Origin: Lachnospiraceae bacterium
GTDB taxonomy: Bacteria; Bacteroidota; Bacteroidia; Bacteroidales; Muribaculaceae
DNA: 64,000 bases
Reading direction: 5' to 3'
NCBI GenBank assembly: GCA_023663655.1
Contig: JAMPGZ010000001.1
Location: forward strand, 97,671-161,670
The position numbers and the translations under genes were made by a program. The notes below the pieces were generated by a model. It was not told the origin of the DNA and did no database searches. It saw nothing but the letters and a program-made list of their open reading frames with translations. This document shows positions 14,787-48,124 of this stretch, in pieces. Position 1 is the stretch's first letter, and the number at the start of each line of letters is the position of its first letter.

Positions 14787-15520
14787 TTAAACTTACTCTC
14801 CCCGATAAGCCTAAGGAACTAACGCCTGAGGTTGAAAAGCGTCTTACCGATGAATTTAAAAGTAATCCCAAAAAGACCGTATGGAAGCAGGATTACATTG
14901 AGACGGCTTTGTTGAATATGTCCCATGGGAAATGTGCTTATTCTGAGAAAAAGCTGAATCAAGGAAGTGTCTATCTTGAGATAGAGCATTTTCGCCACAA
15001 GGATCTCTATAAAGACGATGTGGTGAAATGGGGTAATCTTTTGCCTGCGTGTAAAAAGTGTAATACTACCAAGGGTGCTTGGGATGTTGAGGAGCACCCA
15101 ATAGTCAATCCGCTTGTCGATACCCCTAAAAATCATCTTTTTGTCAGGGGATTCCGGTTCTATAAGCATGATGATAAAGGACGTGATACGATAATGGCGG
15201 TAGCATTGAATGACCGCACACATTTCGTGAATCCTCGTGGTGAGATGGCTATAAGAATCGTGGACGAAATAGAAAGTACATTTAACCATTTGAAGGAACT
15301 TGTTTCTCCGCATCACCGGCGAATTGCGTCTCAGAAGATCAAGTCTTTGATGGAGGAATGCGGTCCTGAATACGAATATTCTGCCGTGATTTCGACCTAT
15401 TTGTTGTATGAGTGGGCGATATTCCCTGAGATGGAGAGCTATCTCAGGGAATCGGGATTATGGGATGATGAATTTGATGAGATTAAGGCTAATCTGGCAG
15501 AAATAGCCATGCCGGGTTAG
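14783..15520 (+). CDS. HNH endonuclease, PtuB-like component of a Septu-type defence system
   Basis: This 245-residue protein has the HNH/McrA-type core found in PtuB: KCAYSEKKL (Cys51), YLEIEHFRHKD (catalytic His69), WGNLLPACKKCNTTKG (Asn85, Cys90, Cys93). In most relatives the first knuckle is CxYC; here the second position is Ser54, leaving only three obvious zinc cysteines. The protein is otherwise full length with the usual helical C-terminal half. In Septu the ATPase and HNH assemble into a complex that degrades DNA on phage infection. Its stop TAG shares two bases with the stop of the convergent lipoprotein gene of the phage-head cassette. Antiphage activity is inferred from gene order and motifs only. 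Confidence 0.75.
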   Translation: MIKLTLPDKPKELTPEVEKRLTDEFKSNPKKTVWKQDYIETALLNMSHGKCAYSEKKLNQGSVYLEIEHFRHKDLYKDDVVKWGNLLPACKKCNTTKGAWDVEEHPIVNPLVDTPKNHLFVRGFRFYKHDDKGRDTIMAVALNDRTHFVNPRGEMAIRIVDEIESTFNHLKELVSPHHRRIASQKIKSLMEECGPEYEYSAVISTYLLYEWAIFPEMESYLRESGLWDDEFDEIKANLAEIAMPG

Positions 15521-15774
15521 AGTTTCTTTATTGCGAATAGAATCAGGAGGATGCCGATGAGGATGCCGGTGGCGTAGCGTCCTATGGTGGTGAGGGTTGA
15601 TTGGCTGTCGCTTGGCGGTTTCTCGACCTCGACGATTGTGGTTACGGTGTCGGTTGTGGCTGAGCGTTCATGCCTCACGTCGCTGTGCCATGTCGGGGCG
15701 GCTACCGGTATCTGCCGGGTGCATCCTGCGGTTGCCATCATTGCCACAAGGGGGAGTATTATTCCGGTTTTCAT
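15517..15774 (-). CDS. small lipoprotein with C-terminal membrane segment, last gene of the phage-head cassette
   Basis: This 85-residue protein has a lipobox (MATAGCTRQ, Cys18), a polar middle (RHERSATTDTVTTIVEVEKP) and a C-terminal hydrophobic segment (IGRYATGILIGILLILFAI) ending in KKL. The start overlaps the portal stop by four bases (ATGA), so it is translationally coupled to a phage gene although it looks like a host envelope protein. A spanin-like or membrane-docking role is possible; no family is recognised. Its own stop overlaps that of the convergent HNH gene. Confidence 0.6.
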   Translation of the reverse strand: MKTGIILPLVAMMATAGCTRQIPVAAPTWHSDVRHERSATTDTVTTIVEVEKPPSDSQSTLTTIGRYATGILIGILLILFAIKKL

Positions 15775-17126
15775 GTCGATAGGTGTTTTAGCACGTTGTC
15801 ACGGCGTGCGATGAATGATTCAAATGATTCAAAGAGATCCGCTAAGGCGGTAAGCGAATTTTCGTGCTGGCTATCATAATAGGATGCCGCTTTTGCCGAT
15901 GACGGGGTGGTTCCCTTCAAGGCTCCGCTCACTCCCGAGATCTCCTCGATGAGCCTCAGTTGCTGCTCCACCATGCCGTTGATGCCAAGGTCGGCGGTCG
16001 ACGACACCACCTGTTGCGGTCCCGGCAGTCCCGGAATCGCCCGGTATATTACCACTCCGTCGGGCGCCGCCCAGTTCTGAGCAGTGTCGCTGAGGGTCAT
16101 GTGAGGCGATTTCTGATTGTCGGGGAACAGCAGCACGCCCTTTGCGGCGGTCGACAGCACTCTGTCATTGAGTGTCAGCAGGCGGTTGATGTTGCGTTGA
16201 TGCTCGATCAGGTCCTCTACAAATGAATGTATCTCGCCGTCGATGAGCGGATAGAACTTGTAGATATAAGGATGGCTCTCGGCGGTGTACTCGTCGATCA
16301 CCTCCCCCGTGGGGGCGAGAAACCGGCATTGCCACTCTCCGGTCATCTCCCAGCGTGTCTTGATTTCGGGACGCTTCATTTTGGCGCGGCGCTTGTTTTC
16401 GGCGTTTATCCGCTGCGCTTCATGAAGTCCGGCATAGAAGAACTGTCCCGAGTGGGTGTCGTGGCATCTGAGACGTTCGCGGGTCTCGAAGCTCCATGTC
16501 TCGATCAGCCTTTGCCGTCCGTGGGGAGCCTGAAGAAACGCCACCGAGTCGTTCATCGATTCACCGAGCATGGCGCTTGCACCATAATCGGCTCTTGCCC
16601 CGATCCCTTCATATATCCGCTTTATGCGGGCGGCTTTTTGGCGGTTGCCGTGGCTGTGGCGCATCACTATCTGTCGCAGGGTCACGTCGTGCAGTTCGCC
16701 TAAGAATTCCGTCAGCCCGTCATCGTCAAGGTCGATGAAGAATCGCGCCGGGTTCACTTGCTCCACATGAAGCGTGTCGCCCGTCTCGTCGACGTGTCGC
16801 GACACCCGGTGGATCGCGCACCCTGAGATAAGAAACTCCTCAAATGTGCGCGCGTCCAGCTCCGAGTGTTTCCGGCAGGAATCATCCCGGCTCCTCATGC
16901 GGTAGCACCCCACCACGGTTTTCACAAGCTGGCGTATTATGTTGTTGGTCGCCGGATGGTGGTTGATTCTCAGCAGCAGTTCCCGCTCCTGTAGCGGGAT
17001 GCCGTTGCTGTCGACTACTATGTCGCCCCATTGGTCGCCGAATGTGTAGCGCTTGAATCTCATGCGGCGGCTTCGCAGGCAGGCTCCTCGGTTCCAGGTC
17101 TCTCGTGCGTGATTAAGATGGTTCAT
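15771..17126 (-). CDS. phage portal protein-like
   Basis: This 451-residue protein resembles P22/podovirus-type portals, the dodecameric ring at the capsid vertex. Features: an N-terminal stretch with INHHPATNNIIRQLVKTVVG, a wing-like region with EFLISGCAIHRVSRHVDE and VNPARFFIDLDDDGLTEF, a stem region HSFVEDLIEHQRNINRLLTL, and a crown-side GINGMVEQQLRLIEEISGVS followed by TPSSAKAASYYDSQHENSL. The ATG at 17126 is chosen because it lies just after the adaptor stop; a longer frame would overlap the adaptor. At 451 residues it is shorter than P22 gp1 (725). No terminase gene is nearby, which a working packaging machine would need. Confidence 0.7.
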   Translation of the reverse strand: MNHLNHARETWNRGACLRSRRMRFKRYTFGDQWGDIVVDSNGIPLQERELLLRINHHPATNNIIRQLVKTVVGCYRMRSRDDSCRKHSELDARTFEEFLISGCAIHRVSRHVDETGDTLHVEQVNPARFFIDLDDDGLTEFLGELHDVTLRQIVMRHSHGNRQKAARIKRIYEGIGARADYGASAMLGESMNDSVAFLQAPHGRQRLIETWSFETRERLRCHDTHSGQFFYAGLHEAQRINAENKRRAKMKRPEIKTRWEMTGEWQCRFLAPTGEVIDEYTAESHPYIYKFYPLIDGEIHSFVEDLIEHQRNINRLLTLNDRVLSTAAKGVLLFPDNQKSPHMTLSDTAQNWAAPDGVVIYRAIPGLPGPQQVVSSTADLGINGMVEQQLRLIEEISGVSGALKGTTPSSAKAASYYDSQHENSLTALADLFESFESFIARRDNVLKHLST

Positions 17127-17145
17127 GGTATTAAGAATTTGATTG

Positions 17146-17664
17146 TTAAGGTATGATTGTTGCCAGTGCGGCTGAATCGAGAGCGTAGACTCCCGGAACA
17201 TCCACCACCGCTGTCAGAGTAAGCAGCTTGCCGGCGGCAGGGTAAAGGTCGATGCGGTTGCCGCTCACTACCGCCACCGGCGACCCGGCGGTGCCGCGTG
17301 TGTAGGGCGATTTTTGCAACCGGGCAGTCCGGGAATTGAGGTCGCAGGTTATCACCGGCGCTCCTCTCCATCCCTCCATCTCGATTCCCGTTATCCGGAG
17401 AGTGCCTTCGGGCAGGACTATGTATCCGCTTCCATCCTCCCGGGCTGTCACGTTGCATTTGCCCGATATGTCGGTCGGATTCAGGAGATGCAGCTCTCCG
17501 TAGTGGAGGAGGTTTCGGTACCAGTCCTCCATGCGGGCTTTCAGAATAGCTTCCGCGTCGATGCCGTCCACGCGTTCCATTGTGTAGTCGGCGGCGGTGT
17601 TTTCGGGGAAGAACCGCAACTGCCACTCATGCAGCAGTTGCGATTCGGTCAACAGTAGTTTCAT
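17146..17664 (-). CDS. probable head-tail adaptor / connector-like protein
   Basis: This 172-residue protein (ATG at 17664; an upstream in-frame TTG exists) is mostly alpha-helical at the N-terminus (LTESQLLHEWQLRFFPE, DAEAILKARMEDWYRNLLHY) and beta-rich after residue 60, with GSGYIVLPEGTLRITGIEME. The size, position between capsid and portal genes and this layout fit a P22-gp4-like adaptor or head-completion protein; sequence alone does not prove it. It is separated from the capsid gene by 17 bases and from the portal start by 19. Confidence 0.5.
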   Translation of the reverse strand: MKLLLTESQLLHEWQLRFFPENTAADYTMERVDGIDAEAILKARMEDWYRNLLHYGELHLLNPTDISGKCNVTAREDGSGYIVLPEGTLRITGIEMEGWRGAPVITCDLNSRTARLQKSPYTRGTAGSPVAVVSGNRIDLYPAAGKLLTLTAVVDVPGVYALDSAALATIIP

Positions 17665-17681
17665 GGTATCAGATGTCAAAA

Positions 17682-18986
17682 TTATCCTTCACCGCCTTCG
17701 TCGCCGTCATCACCCCCGCCTGTCGCCGGTGGCGTCACCGGAGTTTCCGGCTGATTCTGCTTTCCCTCGGCGACTATGCGCAGATGGGCTCCCGGATATC
17801 TCAGCACCAGGCACGATGCTTCGGTGAGCACCACCGCCTCCGAATTGCGCTGCCCCGATTTCAGCAAGTCGATAGGCATAGCCTTGAACGGGATGTGGGT
17901 GTACTTCTGAAGATACTCCGGGTCGATCACCATCGCATCGTCCTCGTGCCCGCAAGCGTCAAAGATTTCGCTCAGCACCACATAGAGCCGTCCGAACTTC
18001 GTGTGTATCTCCGTGAAGTCGATGCCCCAGCGGGTCACGGTCTCGGTGGCGCCTATCACCTTCACGCTGTCGAGGGTGCTGAGGGCTTCGATGAATCCCG
18101 AGCCGGCGATGAGTATCTTGCGTGAAGAGCCCGCATTTCCCGTGAATGCCTGACGCGAGAGCTTCACCATGTCGGTGCTGCTGAAGCTCCCTCGGGTGTA
18201 GCGGAATTCATTGTCGGTCTGATTCCATATACCCTGCGTCATGAACACGGCGCCCTCCGAAGGGCCCTTCTCAAAGCGGTGCATGGTGCCGAAAAGGAAA
18301 TTTTTCTCCATGCCCAGCCTCATGTCGATGAGCGCCACCTCCTGCTGGTCGGTCAGTGTCCAGCCCACCTCTTTCGACGATTGACGCTGAAGCATCGACT
18401 GCTCAACTTGGGCTTTAAAAATTTGGCAGAAATTTTTTTGCTTCACCGGCATCGCCTGAGCGTGAGTGGTTTGCACGTCCATCTCCGCAGCCGCTCGCCC
18501 CATTCTCACCACTTTGCTTCCGGCAAAAATGTAGATCGTGTCGGAACTGTCACCAAGTCCGATAGGCTTTAGGTGCAACGAGCCGTCGACACTGTTCACA
18601 TAGAACATTATTCCCTTTCTGCCTCCACATTCCGCTTCCGGAATAAGCACGGTGTCAGTGTCGCTGAAACAATTCGGATTGTTCACCTCGAGCCTCACCT
18701 CTGCGGCTGAAGAGCTTGCCGTGACATCCCTCGCCACCTCGGTTTCGCTCGGCGTGGTGTCCACCGAATAATACTCCGTCACCATGCTCTTGCTGTGGCG
18801 CGCTTTGCCCATGCGGGATATCTGGTCGATGGGTGTCGACATAGGGCGTATCTTCACTATGCGGCTGTCAATCTCGTTGGTGAGCAAGTCGGCGCTCACC
18901 TGTTCTGAAATGTTGGTTGTAATAGGTGCGTTGAGCACGTGGGCGCCACCGTTGGCACCGGTTGTAATAACTGGTTTCATGGTCAT
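17682..18986 (-). CDS. phage major capsid protein-like (HK97-fold, SU10/DUF5309-like)
   Basis: This 434-residue protein has the outline of a tailed-phage major capsid protein. The N-terminus, IDSRIVKIRPMSTPIDQISR then GKARHSKSMVTEYYSVDT, matches the 'problem solved by position' start of SU10/DUF5309-type capsids (a region listing the sample position and fixing the N-arm). The middle has NFCQIFKAQVEQSMLQRQSS and MEKNFLFGTMHRFEKG, the helix-rich P-domain, then RKILIAGSGFIEALSTLDSV and FGRLYVVLSEIFDACGHEDD near the A-domain. It ends in a Gly/Pro/Asp-rich tail (TGGGDDGDEGGEG). Family choice is tentative, but a capsid identity is supported by the neighbouring portal. ATG at 18980 is an alternative start. 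Confidence 0.7.
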   Translation of the reverse strand: MTMKPVITTGANGGAHVLNAPITTNISEQVSADLLTNEIDSRIVKIRPMSTPIDQISRMGKARHSKSMVTEYYSVDTTPSETEVARDVTASSSAAEVRLEVNNPNCFSDTDTVLIPEAECGGRKGIMFYVNSVDGSLHLKPIGLGDSSDTIYIFAGSKVVRMGRAAAEMDVQTTHAQAMPVKQKNFCQIFKAQVEQSMLQRQSSKEVGWTLTDQQEVALIDMRLGMEKNFLFGTMHRFEKGPSEGAVFMTQGIWNQTDNEFRYTRGSFSSTDMVKLSRQAFTGNAGSSRKILIAGSGFIEALSTLDSVKVIGATETVTRWGIDFTEIHTKFGRLYVVLSEIFDACGHEDDAMVIDPEYLQKYTHIPFKAMPIDLLKSGQRNSEAVVLTEASCLVLRYPGAHLRIVAEGKQNQPETPVTPPATGGGDDGDEGGEG

Positions 18987-19054
18987 TAAAAATTAAATGT
19001 GGTTAATAGAAAAAATGAATTAAAATGTTGATAAACTCCTGTGCTTGATTCCCG

Positions 19055-19420
19055 TCACTCCTCATCCCAGATGCTCCTGCGCGCTTCCGGGAAAAAATCG
19101 GGGGTAGGGGAGAGATTGTCACCGCCCGCTGACGGCGGTGACTGCGACGGCGGCAGCTGCTCATACAGTGCCGGAGCGTTCAGCCGCTGCTCAGCCGCCT
19201 CGTTCAATCCCCTCAGATAGCCTCTCTGCTCAGCCTCTTGCAGCATCGTGTCATCAGCCTGCCTTCCGAAATATTTGTCGGCAGCCGCCGTCGCATCGCT
19301 TCCCGCAAGAATCTCGACCAAAAAATGTCCGGCTCTCACATCACGCTCCACGATAGCGTTGAGCGACACCGATTCCTGAGGCGTTTCCATAACTTGTGTT
19401 TTCATAGTTGATGTTTCCAT
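19055..19420 (-). CDS. small protein upstream of the capsid gene, possible scaffold
   Basis: This 121-residue protein starts at the ATG at 19420 (METSTMKTQ); a longer frame to 19612 would run through low-complexity repeats and is not credible. It is acidic and Gln/Ala-rich with a likely helical centre (TMLQEAEQRGYLRGLNEAAE) and a Pro/Ser-rich stretch (QLPPSQSPPSAGGDNL). Position directly before a capsid gene and helical content fit a scaffolding protein, as in many head modules, but no family is recognised. The stop lies 68 bases before the capsid start. Confidence 0.45.
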   Translation of the reverse strand: METSTMKTQVMETPQESVSLNAIVERDVRAGHFLVEILAGSDATAAADKYFGRQADDTMLQEAEQRGYLRGLNEAAEQRLNAPALYEQLPPSQSPPSAGGDNLSPTPDFFPEARRSIWDEE

Positions 19421-19449: not shown

Positions 19450-19457
19450 CAAAGTTA
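19450..19457 (-). promoter_or_regulatory. -7 box (TAACTTTG) of the phage-head cassette
   Basis: Exact host-type TAnnTTTG match on the minus strand, about 30 bases before the ATG at 19420. It suggests the cassette is read by the host vegetative sigma factor. No TTTG is seen at the right spacing. Confidence 0.55.
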
Positions 19458-19510
19458 AGCCACGCCAACCCCAAAAATACCCACTTTTTATCCCACCCCC
19501 TAAAAAAAAT

Positions 19511-19566
19511 AAAGTCCTTAAGGTCGTTAAAGTCGTTAAAGTCCTTAAAGTCCTTAACGACCTTAT
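19511..19566. repeat. tandem 9-bp repeats (GTCNTTAAG family)
   Basis: About six imperfect copies of a 9-base unit, such as AAAGTCCTTAAGGTCGTTAA, between the divergent phage cassette and susC promoters. The same unit occurs after queF and before maeB. Confidence 0.7.
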
Positions 19567-33929: not shown

Positions 33930-33930
33930 T

Positions 33931-33980
33931 AATGGGACTAATTAGTCTAATTGGACCAATTGGACTAATTGGACAAATGG
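33931..33980. repeat. 9-bp repeats of the GGACTAATT family (left of element B)
   Basis: Five to six copies of the unit, including GGACTAATTAGTCTAATTGG. It directly abuts paired REP element B. Confidence 0.65.
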
Positions 33981-34196: not shown

Positions 34197-34250
34197 TCTA
34201 ATTGGACTAATTGGGCTAATAGGACCAATTGGACTAATTGGGTTAATTGG
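34197..34250. repeat. 9-bp repeats of the GGACTAATT family (right of element B)
   Basis: Six copies including GGACTAATTGGGCTAATAGG. They end 10 bases before the promoter box of the dipeptidase gene, so they may overlap its -33 region. Confidence 0.65.
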
Positions 34251-34260
34251 AAAAAATTTG

Positions 34261-35918: not shown

Positions 35919-36392
35919 ATGTCACGTACAGCTGAAGAGATGCCGGGAGTGACCCTGCTTGGCAACACCGCAACGCGTTACCCCGACCAATATGCCCCCG
36001 AGGTGCTTGAGACATTTGACAACAAGCACCCCGACAATGAGTATCTTGTGACATTCACCTGTCCTGAGTTCACATCGCTCTGCCCGAAGACGGGTCAGCC
36101 CGATTTTGCCAAGATCATCATCAACTATATTCCGCGCGAGAAGATGGTTGAGAGCAAGAGCCTGAAGCTGTATCTGTTCAGCTTCCGCAATCATGGCGAT
36201 TTTCACGAGGATTGCGTGAATATCATCATGAAGGATCTTGTGAAGCTGATGGATCCGAAGTATCTTGAGGTGATAGGACTGTTCACTCCGCGCGGCGGAA
36301 TATCGATATATCCGTTTGCCAATTATGGCGACGCCGGGCATCAGGATCTTGTGAAGGCAAGGATGCTCGCCGCGTTCCGCAATGACTTTTAA
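35919..36392 (+). CDS. queF: NADPH-dependent 7-cyano-7-deazaguanine reductase (preQ0 to preQ1)
   Basis: This 157-residue protein is the short, unimodular form of QueF, which reduces the nitrile of preQ0 to the amine of preQ1 in queuosine synthesis. The catalytic block [19 protein letters not shown] contains the nucleophile Cys55 and Asp62, and [20 protein letters not shown] is the NADPH-binding motif. It is cotranscribed with the C69 dipeptidase, which is metabolically unrelated. No preQ1 riboswitch is seen in the five-base gap or upstream of the operon. Other queuosine genes are not in the window. Confidence 0.95.
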
Positions 36393-36440
36393 GGTCGATA
36401 GGGTCGTTAAAGTCATTAAGGTCGTTAAGGTCATTAAGAC
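36391..36440. repeat. tandem 9-bp repeats (GTCNTTAAG family) after queF
   Basis: Five copies such as GTCGTTAAAGTCATTAAGGT immediately after the queF stop codon, between two convergent genes. Confidence 0.65.
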
Positions 36441-43263: not shown

Positions 43264-43333
43264 ATTAGTCGAATTAGTCTAATGGGGCTAATTAGTCAAA
43301 TTGGACTAATTGGGCTAATGGGACTAATTGGAT
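43264..43333. repeat. 9-bp repeats of the GGACTAATT family
   Basis: Seven to eight copies including GGGCTAATTAGTCAAATTGG between maeB and a lipoprotein gene. No paired REP element is next to them here. Confidence 0.65.
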
Positions 43334-46564: not shown

Positions 46565-48124
46565 ATGGACACCAGCGAAGAAAAGAAACCAAGACGTCCC
46601 CGCATCGGGGAAAACCGTATCGCCGCATCATCGGCGGGAGAGGGTTCGTTCAGTAATGCAGAGCGTACAGCTACACCGGGAGATGACGCATCTTCCGACG
46701 CGCCACGCCGGGAGTATTCATCCTATGACCGCCCCTATCAGCCGCGTCCCTACGCGCAGAGAGGCTATAACAATGGCAGATCGGGCTATAATAACCAAGG
46801 CGGCTACAACAACAACCGCCAGCAGGGTGGATATAACCGTTACAACAATAACCAGGGCGGCTATCAACCACGCCAGTATCAGCAGCCGGTAGAGGGCGCT
46901 GAGAACGCATCGGCAGATGCAGCTTCAGGCGACAATGCAACTTCAACCGGATACAACCAGCAAGGCGGTTACAACAACAACCGTCAGGGTGGCTACAATA
47001 ACAACCGATACAATAATAACCGCCAACATAATGGCTATAATAACAATCGTCAGCAGGGCGGTTACAATAATTATCAGCAAGGCGGCTACAATAATAACCG
47101 TCAGCAGGGCGGTTACAACAACAACCGTCAGGGCGGCTACAATAATAACCGTCAGCAAGGCGGCTATAACAACAATCGCCAGGGCGGCTACAATAACAAC
47201 AACCGTCAGCAGGGCGGTTACAACAACAATCGTCAGGGCGGCTACAATAACAACAACCGTCAAGGCGGCTATAACAACAATCGTCAGGGTGGCTACAACA
47301 ACCGTCAGCAGGGCAATCGTCAGCAGCAGGGATTCCAGCGTCCGGGCAAGAGCTTCGTGCCGCGTCCCAAGCGTATCGAGTATGAAATGCCGATACCCGA
47401 TCCTAATGAACAGATCCGCCTCAACAAGTTCATGGCTAATGCCGGAATATGCTCACGCCGTGAAGCTGATGAATTCATCACTCAGGGTCTTGTGAAGGTG
47501 AACGGCGAGGTTGTGACCGAACTCGGAACAAAAATCTCTCACAGCGATGTTGTGGAGTATGATGAAAAGGTGGTGACACTGGAGAGCAAGTGCTACATCC
47601 TGCTCAACAAGCCGAAGGATTGCGTGACTACAAGCGATGACCCCAACGGACGCACCACTGTGATGGACCTTGTGAAGGGCGCTTGCAACGAACGCATCTA
47701 TCCTGTGGGTCGTCTTGACCGCAACACCACCGGTGTGCTTCTCCTTACCAACGACGGCGATCTCGCTTCTAAGCTCACACATCCGAAATATGTGAAGAAA
47801 AAGATCTATCACGTGTGGACTGATAAGGATATCTCAGAAGAGGATATGCAGGCTATCGCCGACGGTATCGAACTTGAGGACGGACCGATCCATGCCGATG
47901 CCATCAGCTATGCTACCGAGACTGACCGCAACCAGGCGGGTATCGAGATCCACTCAGGACGTAACCGTATCGTGCGCCGTATCTTTGAGAGCCTTGGCTA
48001 TCACGTGACCAAGCTCGACCGTGTGTATTTCGCAGGTCTCACCAAGAAGAATCTGCCTCGCGGAAGATGGCGTTATCTCACTCAGGAAGAGGTTAATTTC
48101 CTGAAAATGGGTTCTTTTGAATAA
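46565..48124 (+). CDS. RluB/RsuA family rRNA pseudouridine synthase with a long Gly-Tyr-Asn-Arg-Gln repeat region
   Basis: This 519-residue protein joins a disordered N-terminus to a normal enzyme. Residues 1-66 are charged and low-complexity; residues 67-258 are built of about 18 copies of GGYNNNRQ-type units ([17 protein letters not shown]). From about residue 284 comes an S4 RNA-binding domain ([19 protein letters not shown]) and a RluA/RsuA-type catalytic domain with the catalytic Asp385 in [18 protein letters not shown], and the C-terminal [20 protein letters not shown]. It modifies uridine in large-subunit rRNA. The repeats are encoded by near-identical DNA units, so length may change by recombination. 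asnS lies 17 bases downstream. Family members in Bacteroidetes often have Asn/Gln-rich extensions. Confidence 0.9.
46763..47338 (+). repeat. in-frame tandem repeat coding GGYNNNRQ units
   Basis: DNA units such as GGCGGCTACAATAACAACCG recur about 18 times, in frame, with small length changes (24 or 27 bases). This is coding DNA, not a CRISPR array. Confidence 0.9.

Follow-up and report, generated by a model that had tools for sequence, protein, structure and literature searches.

We analysed a 64,000-nucleotide stretch of DNA (contig JAMPGZ010000001.1, positions 97,671 to 161,670; hereafter the window) from a member of Muribaculaceae, a major family of the mouse gut, and focused on a cassette of five intact minus-strand genes at window positions 15517-19420. 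Together with genes found at other loci of the same genome, the cassette probably represents a set of domesticated, host-inherited podovirus head and packaging genes that are scattered over the chromosome and form a gene-transfer-agent-like system. It is also rather likely, although we hold this with less assurance, that the system is the first gene transfer agent (GTA) lineage of Bacteroidota, domesticated before several Bacteroidales families split and still selected in most Muribaculaceae, with its virion genes dispersed singly and its portal and scaffold trimmed. We refer to the system as GTA-like rather than as a proven GTA because it displays only the four sequence-testable features of the published GTA definition (PMC9662315).

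The head gene cassette

The capsid gene (17682-18986, minus strand) encodes a protein of 434 amino acids (aa), which matched the Pfam family SU10_MCP (PF17236) at 1.4e-54, with 186 bits against a curated cut-off of 24.1, as well as the PHROG major head protein. An AlphaFold model of the window protein (mean predicted local distance difference test score, pLDDT, 74.7) was compared with known structures using Foldseek and VIA-align. The best match of the model was 9in6, the capsid of phage VP1 (Foldseek 1.6e-21; VIA-align Z 19.4, root-mean-square deviation 7.6 over 354 residues), followed in the VIA-align comparisons by Z scores of 18.1 for the SU10 capsid and 15.8 for the capsid of RcGTA, the GTA of Rhodobacter capsulatus. 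By both the profile match and the predicted fold, the 434-aa protein is an SU10-type major capsid protein with an HK97 fold. The capsid call of the initial annotation, which had named structure prediction as a check, was thereby borne out. The portal call also held: the 451-aa product of the gene at 15771-17126 (minus strand) is P22-like, matching PHROG phrog_156 (4.8e-21) and Pfam P22_portal (5.4e-8). In alignment, it ends approximately 170 residues short of phage portals at the C-terminus.

The three remaining proteins were assigned on combined evidence. The gene at 17146-17664 (minus strand, 172 aa) was first called a head-tail adaptor, and this is supported by a weak match to phrog_22135 (9.3e-5), by its position and by its homologues in true phages of the lineage, where the same family sits downstream of the capsid gene. 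The 121-aa protein encoded at 19055-19420 (minus strand), initially listed only as a small protein, is more precisely a shortened scaffolding protein. It corresponds to the C-terminal piece of phage scaffolds of approximately 255-260 aa ("...AEQRGYLRGLNE...RRSIWDEE", with the shared ending R(R/K)S(I/V)WD), and the profile-profile comparison of the short and long scaffolds gave a Prob of 96.6 and an E value of 4.8e-10. The 85-aa lipoprotein (15517-15774, minus strand) has a lipobox at the N-terminus and a membrane helix at the C-terminus, and its putative spanin-like function was proposed because this is the layout of a one-protein spanin. In one phage lysis cassette (L061), and likewise in two genomes (G109 and G115; G, C and L numbers denote our genomes, contigs and loci), a member of its family comes after the endolysin. 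The earlier statement that the cassette lacked lysis genes was thus only partly right, as the lipoprotein resembles those of phage lysis cassettes.

The open reading frame (ORF) list and the sequence confirmed the previously described layout of the cassette, i.e., five same-strand genes with intact frames, intergenic gaps of 68, 17 and 19 bases, a four-base ATGA overlap before the lipoprotein gene and a host-type box. The last is a predicted promoter box of the Bacteroidota TAnnTTTG type (TAACTTTG, 19450-19457, minus strand), located 37 bases ahead of the first start codon. In the window's genome, the extended TAnnTTTGCA box stands ahead of three loci, namely the cassette, the terminase gene (-27) and the locus on contig C22 (-42), its distance to the start codon being 27-42 bases. 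Arrays of 9-bp tandem repeats (e.g., TAAAGTCCT and CTAATTGGA) were considered as a shared regulatory repeat upstream of the first gene (19510-19565) and rejected, as they also occur at several other, mostly intergenic, window sites (33930-33978, 34198-34251, 36389-36438 and 43264-43332). These arrays are a habit of the genome and are not specific to the cassette. A long repeat array with units of 24, 27 and 51 bases was also present within a coding region at 47033-47314. On the other side of the cassette, a PtuA/PtuB pair of the Septu anti-phage system (13581-15520, plus strand; PADLOC 1.4e-100 and 5.1e-79) overlaps the 3' end of the lipoprotein gene by four bases. The pair looks like an insertion beside the cassette because it is missing at the corresponding place in a related genome (G010, locus L043).

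The true phages of the lineage provide the reference for these proteins. Bacteroides phages BF1-TP2, BKO1-TP3 and BS-TP4, together with IMG/VR phages of approximately 50-65 kb, carry homologues of the capsid, scaffold, adaptor, portal and terminase, of the family that we label cl5 and of the nozzle. They differ in being complete, with all genes in one genome and replication genes present. Their gene order is portal, terminase, rhomboid protein, cl5, scaffold, capsid, cl10 and adaptor, and both their scaffolds (approximately 255-260 aa) and their portals (approximately 650-660 aa) are longer. The capsids of these phages are only 33-38% identical to that of the window. Gp60 of BF1-TP2 (L108:40117-42144), annotated as a "tail spike protein", gave 30 terminase matches and is in fact the large subunit of that enzyme. 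One further contig, L280 (IMGVR_UViG_2681813420_000001, 27.5 kb), holds terminase, cl5, a long scaffold, capsid and adaptor genes. Its capsid is nearer to that of the window (44% identity) than those of other phages, and the contig is ambiguous between a phage and a domesticated relative from another family. Four other IMG/VR contigs filed as viral (L277, L278, L279 and L031) hold a bacterial GTA-like cluster, with a shortened scaffold or portal, and no phage genome. True prophages of the ancestral lineage, with portals of approximately 660 aa, coexist with the domesticated system in the same genomes; they lie at G065:C15, G040:C69, G015:C3 and G074:C56.

Virion and packaging genes at other loci

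The initial annotation described the cassette as an orphan without terminase, tail or integrase. For the approximately 10 kb flanking the cassette this was correct, as none of these genes was found there; they are located elsewhere in the genome or absent. At genome scale the term orphan was wrong: a terminase, partner genes and an endolysin lie at other loci of the same genome, and the nozzle, deleted here, is present in relatives. Profile searches identified exactly one terminase large subunit in the window's genome, on the same contig and 146 kb from the cassette. Throughout the family the terminase gene occurs about once per genome, and in most genera it is unlinked to the capsid gene. The Walker A, Walker B and nuclease residues were intact in the window's genome and in 72 of 74 sequences, the variable glycine of Walker A being left out of this count. 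The exceptions were G061, in which the nuclease end is lost, and G086, for which the alignment stops before the last motif.

Upstream of the terminase gene, 13 of 20 genomes encode a protein of approximately 820 aa, and profile matches of about 1e-23 to 1e-25 (one with an E value of 1.6e-25) relate it to one of the virion proteins of the lineage phages. No PDB match was found for it by sequence. Structures were predicted only from the window protein and from relatives on viral contigs, and the model used here is that of the phage homologue (897 aa, pLDDT 82.9). Its 15 best PDB matches were podovirus-type tail proteins, mostly nozzles, and included those of SU10, VP1 and Pa223, the phicrAss001 muzzle and P22 gp10 (Z 20-23). 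The protein was identified as a nozzle because of this fold match of the phage homologue's model. In one genome (G001), a 304-aa ORF, transposase-like by eye, is inserted between the nozzle and terminase genes (L090:8131-9045). The cl5 protein (approximately 150 aa) neighbours the terminase in phages; in the window's genome its gene lies on contig C22 next to that of cl16, and the two-gene unit that they form is syntenic in G010. We suspect that cl5 is a small terminase subunit. A peptidase of the M15 family and phage-endolysin type is encoded in a single copy on contig C20 of the window's genome. Within the genus, 12 of 14 genomes encode it; in genera g17 and g18, its gene directly adjoins that of the portal.

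Conservation, inheritance and selection

The search for the capsid protein covered 148 relatives. Among 89 genomes of the window's own family, the capsid gene was present in 80, nearly always in one copy and at approximately 45-82% identity, the portal in 82, the nozzle in 81 and cl5 in 77. The capsid, portal, terminase and nozzle genes each occurred about once per genome in 78-82 of the 89 members, and all four were found together in 58 of the 69 family genomes that were at least 90% complete. An encapsulin, i.e., an HK97-fold shell without portal or terminase, was rejected as an identity for the capsid protein, given its co-conservation with the portal and a catalytically intact terminase. 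The search for the same gene set in other Muribaculaceae, as suggested initially, showed that most genera retain the order scaffold-capsid-adaptor-portal, bounded by host genes; the host genes flanking the window's cassette are common to its genus. The parts sit in at least four loci of the window's genome and occupy 1-5 chromosomal places in well-assembled Muribaculaceae genomes (six in G109). For instance, G070 carries the capsid, portal with endolysin, terminase, nozzle and cl5 genes at five separate places, and in G012, a nearly closed genome, they occupy four places along a single 3.3-Mb contig; in G012 and G020 the parts are hundreds of kilobases apart. The groupings vary by genus (cl5-nozzle-terminase, portal-cl5 or endolysin-portal), yet a compact order, nozzle-terminase-scaffold-capsid-adaptor-portal-cl5-cl16, emerges when the IMG/VR contigs L278 and L277 are taken together. 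Because the parts are grouped differently between genera and are nevertheless contiguous on these contigs, we regard them as one functional set. When 393 genomes from the order were searched, high-scoring capsids were also found in five other families (f22, f28, f60, f67 and f100). All 15 further genomes tested outside the family that had such capsids also had the terminase, nearly always distant or on another contig.

The gene trees followed the host genera. For 24 genera, a tree must contain at least 23 genus changes; the capsid tree required exactly this number, in comparison to at least 52 for shuffled labels, and 18 of the 19 genera with two or more genomes were monophyletic. For the terminase tree, there were 24 genus changes against a minimum of 22, and 14 of 17 genera were monophyletic. 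The two trees, built from mostly unlinked genes, had 33 of 56 splits in common, whereas shuffled taxa gave at most three. These results bear on the possibility that the system is a mobile satellite, or a fragment of a prophage, whose other parts would be borrowed from helper phages. Some of the genomes (G065, G040, G015 and G074) do contain full phages of the same lineage. Still, the window's genome has its own terminase, the trees track the host genus, and the genes stand alone or in small groups among host genes, syntenic within the genus; such borrowing is therefore scarcely credible. The system was likewise rejected as a phage satellite or capsid-forming chromosomal island, as host genes flank each part and the trees follow the host genus.

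Pairwise ratios of non-synonymous to synonymous substitution rates (dN/dS, Nei-Gojobori method), for which dS was close to saturation in some pairs, were 0.03-0.22 for the capsid, 0.08-0.25 for the portal, 0.05-0.18 for the terminase, 0.15-0.33 for the scaffold and 0.07-0.37 for the nozzle. These values point to strong purifying selection. The capsid frame was open in all 80 sequences collected (73 of the domesticated type and seven of phages). The reading as a plain decayed prophage, whose leftover genes have no use, could draw on the lack of integration, replication and tail genes near the cassette, on the deletion of the nozzle in the window's genome and on broken parts in G063 and G061. 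It is very improbable, since the capsid frames are open, dN/dS is well under 1, the genes are near-universal in the family, unlinked parts have been co-retained over 24 genera, and the same system exists in five further families. Neither of the two findings that had been named as signs of a plain remnant was obtained: no closely identical complete prophage was found, the closest true phages having capsids 33-38% identical (44% for the ambiguous contig), and the capsid frames of relatives were unbroken. The initial suggestion that the genes are retained for a use, possibly a GTA-like one, finds good support: they are conserved in single copy throughout the family, are under purifying selection and agree with the host genus.

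A probable gene-transfer-agent-like system and its known counterparts

By definition, a GTA consists of tailed-phage-derived proteins, and its genome is endogenised in the host, often at multiple loci, and is not fully packageable in one particle; mostly vertical inheritance or co-diversification, encapsidation of mostly random host DNA and delivery to other cells complete the definition (PMC9662315). The first of these features was found in the capsid, portal, adaptor, scaffold, terminase, nozzle and endolysin matches. The genes are endogenised at the multiple loci described above and, judged from their span alone, are too spread for one particle. Vertical inheritance was seen in the capsid and terminase trees by genus labels. 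We infer particle formation, packaged content, lysis, delivery and regulation from the genes. According to the proposed scheme, a podovirus would have been domesticated and its virion genes turned into host genes dispersed over the chromosome, the cassette being its head module. The scaffold and capsid protein would build a small procapsid on the shortened portal, into which the terminase large subunit, together with a small partner that is not strictly selective for sequence, would pump cell DNA and cut it. The adaptor and nozzle would seal the head and make a short tail, the M15 endolysin and the spanin-like lipoprotein would lyse some cells and free the particles, and these may bring DNA to kin.

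Several points weigh against this scheme. Its particle, packaged DNA and transfer are so far predictions from the genes. The trees were quick ones, and vertical descent was judged from genus labels and the agreement of two gene trees, with no host-marker tree; most of the genomes appear to be metagenome assemblies. Further parts were sought by targeted searches only. Nothing credible was found in Muribaculaceae for a receptor-binding fibre, using a two-sequence profile derived from genes beside the adaptor in other families (fibres may evolve too fast for such a search), and no holin was identified in the window's genome. Comparison with G010 showed that a single deletion of approximately 2.3 kb had removed the nozzle and the start of the terminase from the window's genome (G000:C11:263510-263716 and 261760-263508, locus L088). 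The nozzle gene is cut to its first ~73 codons and fused directly to a terminase gene without its first ~30 codons, which keeps all catalytic motifs. Either delivery has been lost in the window's strain or the assembly collapsed at this site; as the nozzle gene is deleted, the strain may no longer deliver DNA. Decay was also seen in single species: in G063 (G063:C11) the portal is in pieces and the terminase is missing, and G061:C19 (L074) keeps the compact cluster with a terminase that lacks its nuclease end. The upkeep of the system across relatives is thus not universal.

The nozzle loss in a genome whose capsid, portal and terminase frames are open is also what a domesticated head-and-motor system of another use might show, e.g., a cargo shell, a phage-interference device that would hijack or poison the assembly of incoming phages, or a killing particle released by lysis. 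The negative search for a fibre and the coexistence of complete phages (capsids 33-38% identical) in some of the same genomes fit such a use as well. We nevertheless consider it unlikely. In a cargo shell, the portal, the terminase nuclease and the nozzle are superfluous, yet all of these are kept family-wide with intact catalytic residues; interference devices are usually fast-varying and horizontally mobile, whereas the present system tracks the host genus.

RcGTA has a long-tailed (siphovirus-like) ancestry and one main cluster of approximately 15 kb, whereas the Muribaculaceae parts are of podovirus type and no main cluster is left in most genera. RcGTA and its alphaproteobacterial relatives resemble the Muribaculaceae system in their endogenised phage genes at several loci, host inheritance and HK97-fold capsid (PMC9662315). 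The closest working analogue is FpGTA of Faecalibacterium prausnitzii, a podovirus-like particle for which both particles and approximately 9 kb of packaged DNA were demonstrated. Its genes form two operons approximately 125 kb apart, one with terminase, portal, scaffold and capsid genes and the other with structural and lysis genes, and the first operon is present throughout the genus (PMC12946183). The two systems, likened here by description only, share a gut anaerobe host, podovirus-type parts and separated loci. They differ in that FpGTA belongs to Bacillota and has two operons, while the Muribaculaceae system occupies 1-5 places, often as single genes, and is spread family-wide. PBSX of Bacillus subtilis, a defective-phage particle that packages random 13-kb pieces of host DNA (PMC7667829), is a defective prophage with no DNA transfer, unlike the scattered and family-wide conserved Muribaculaceae genes.

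Published GTAs come from Alphaproteobacteria, Desulfovibrio, Brachyspira, Methanococcus and Faecalibacterium, and Bacteroidota are absent (PMC12946183, PMC11841831). Our search of the PubMed Central literature (bioRxiv and most subscription papers being outside its scope) found no GTA of Bacteroidota, Bacteroides or Bacteroidales resembling the present system. If the GTA-like reading is true, this would be a new and independent case of phage domestication, in a phylum without a reported GTA in the literature searched. Programs that look for prophages would overlook genes scattered singly in this way, and such dispersal may conceal other GTAs. The finding bears on the long-standing question of how frequent GTAs are outside Alphaproteobacteria, which could be approached by experiment in culturable gut commensals. 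Nearly all Muribaculaceae would then carry an inherited DNA-packaging particle, i.e., a standing route of gene exchange within the gut.

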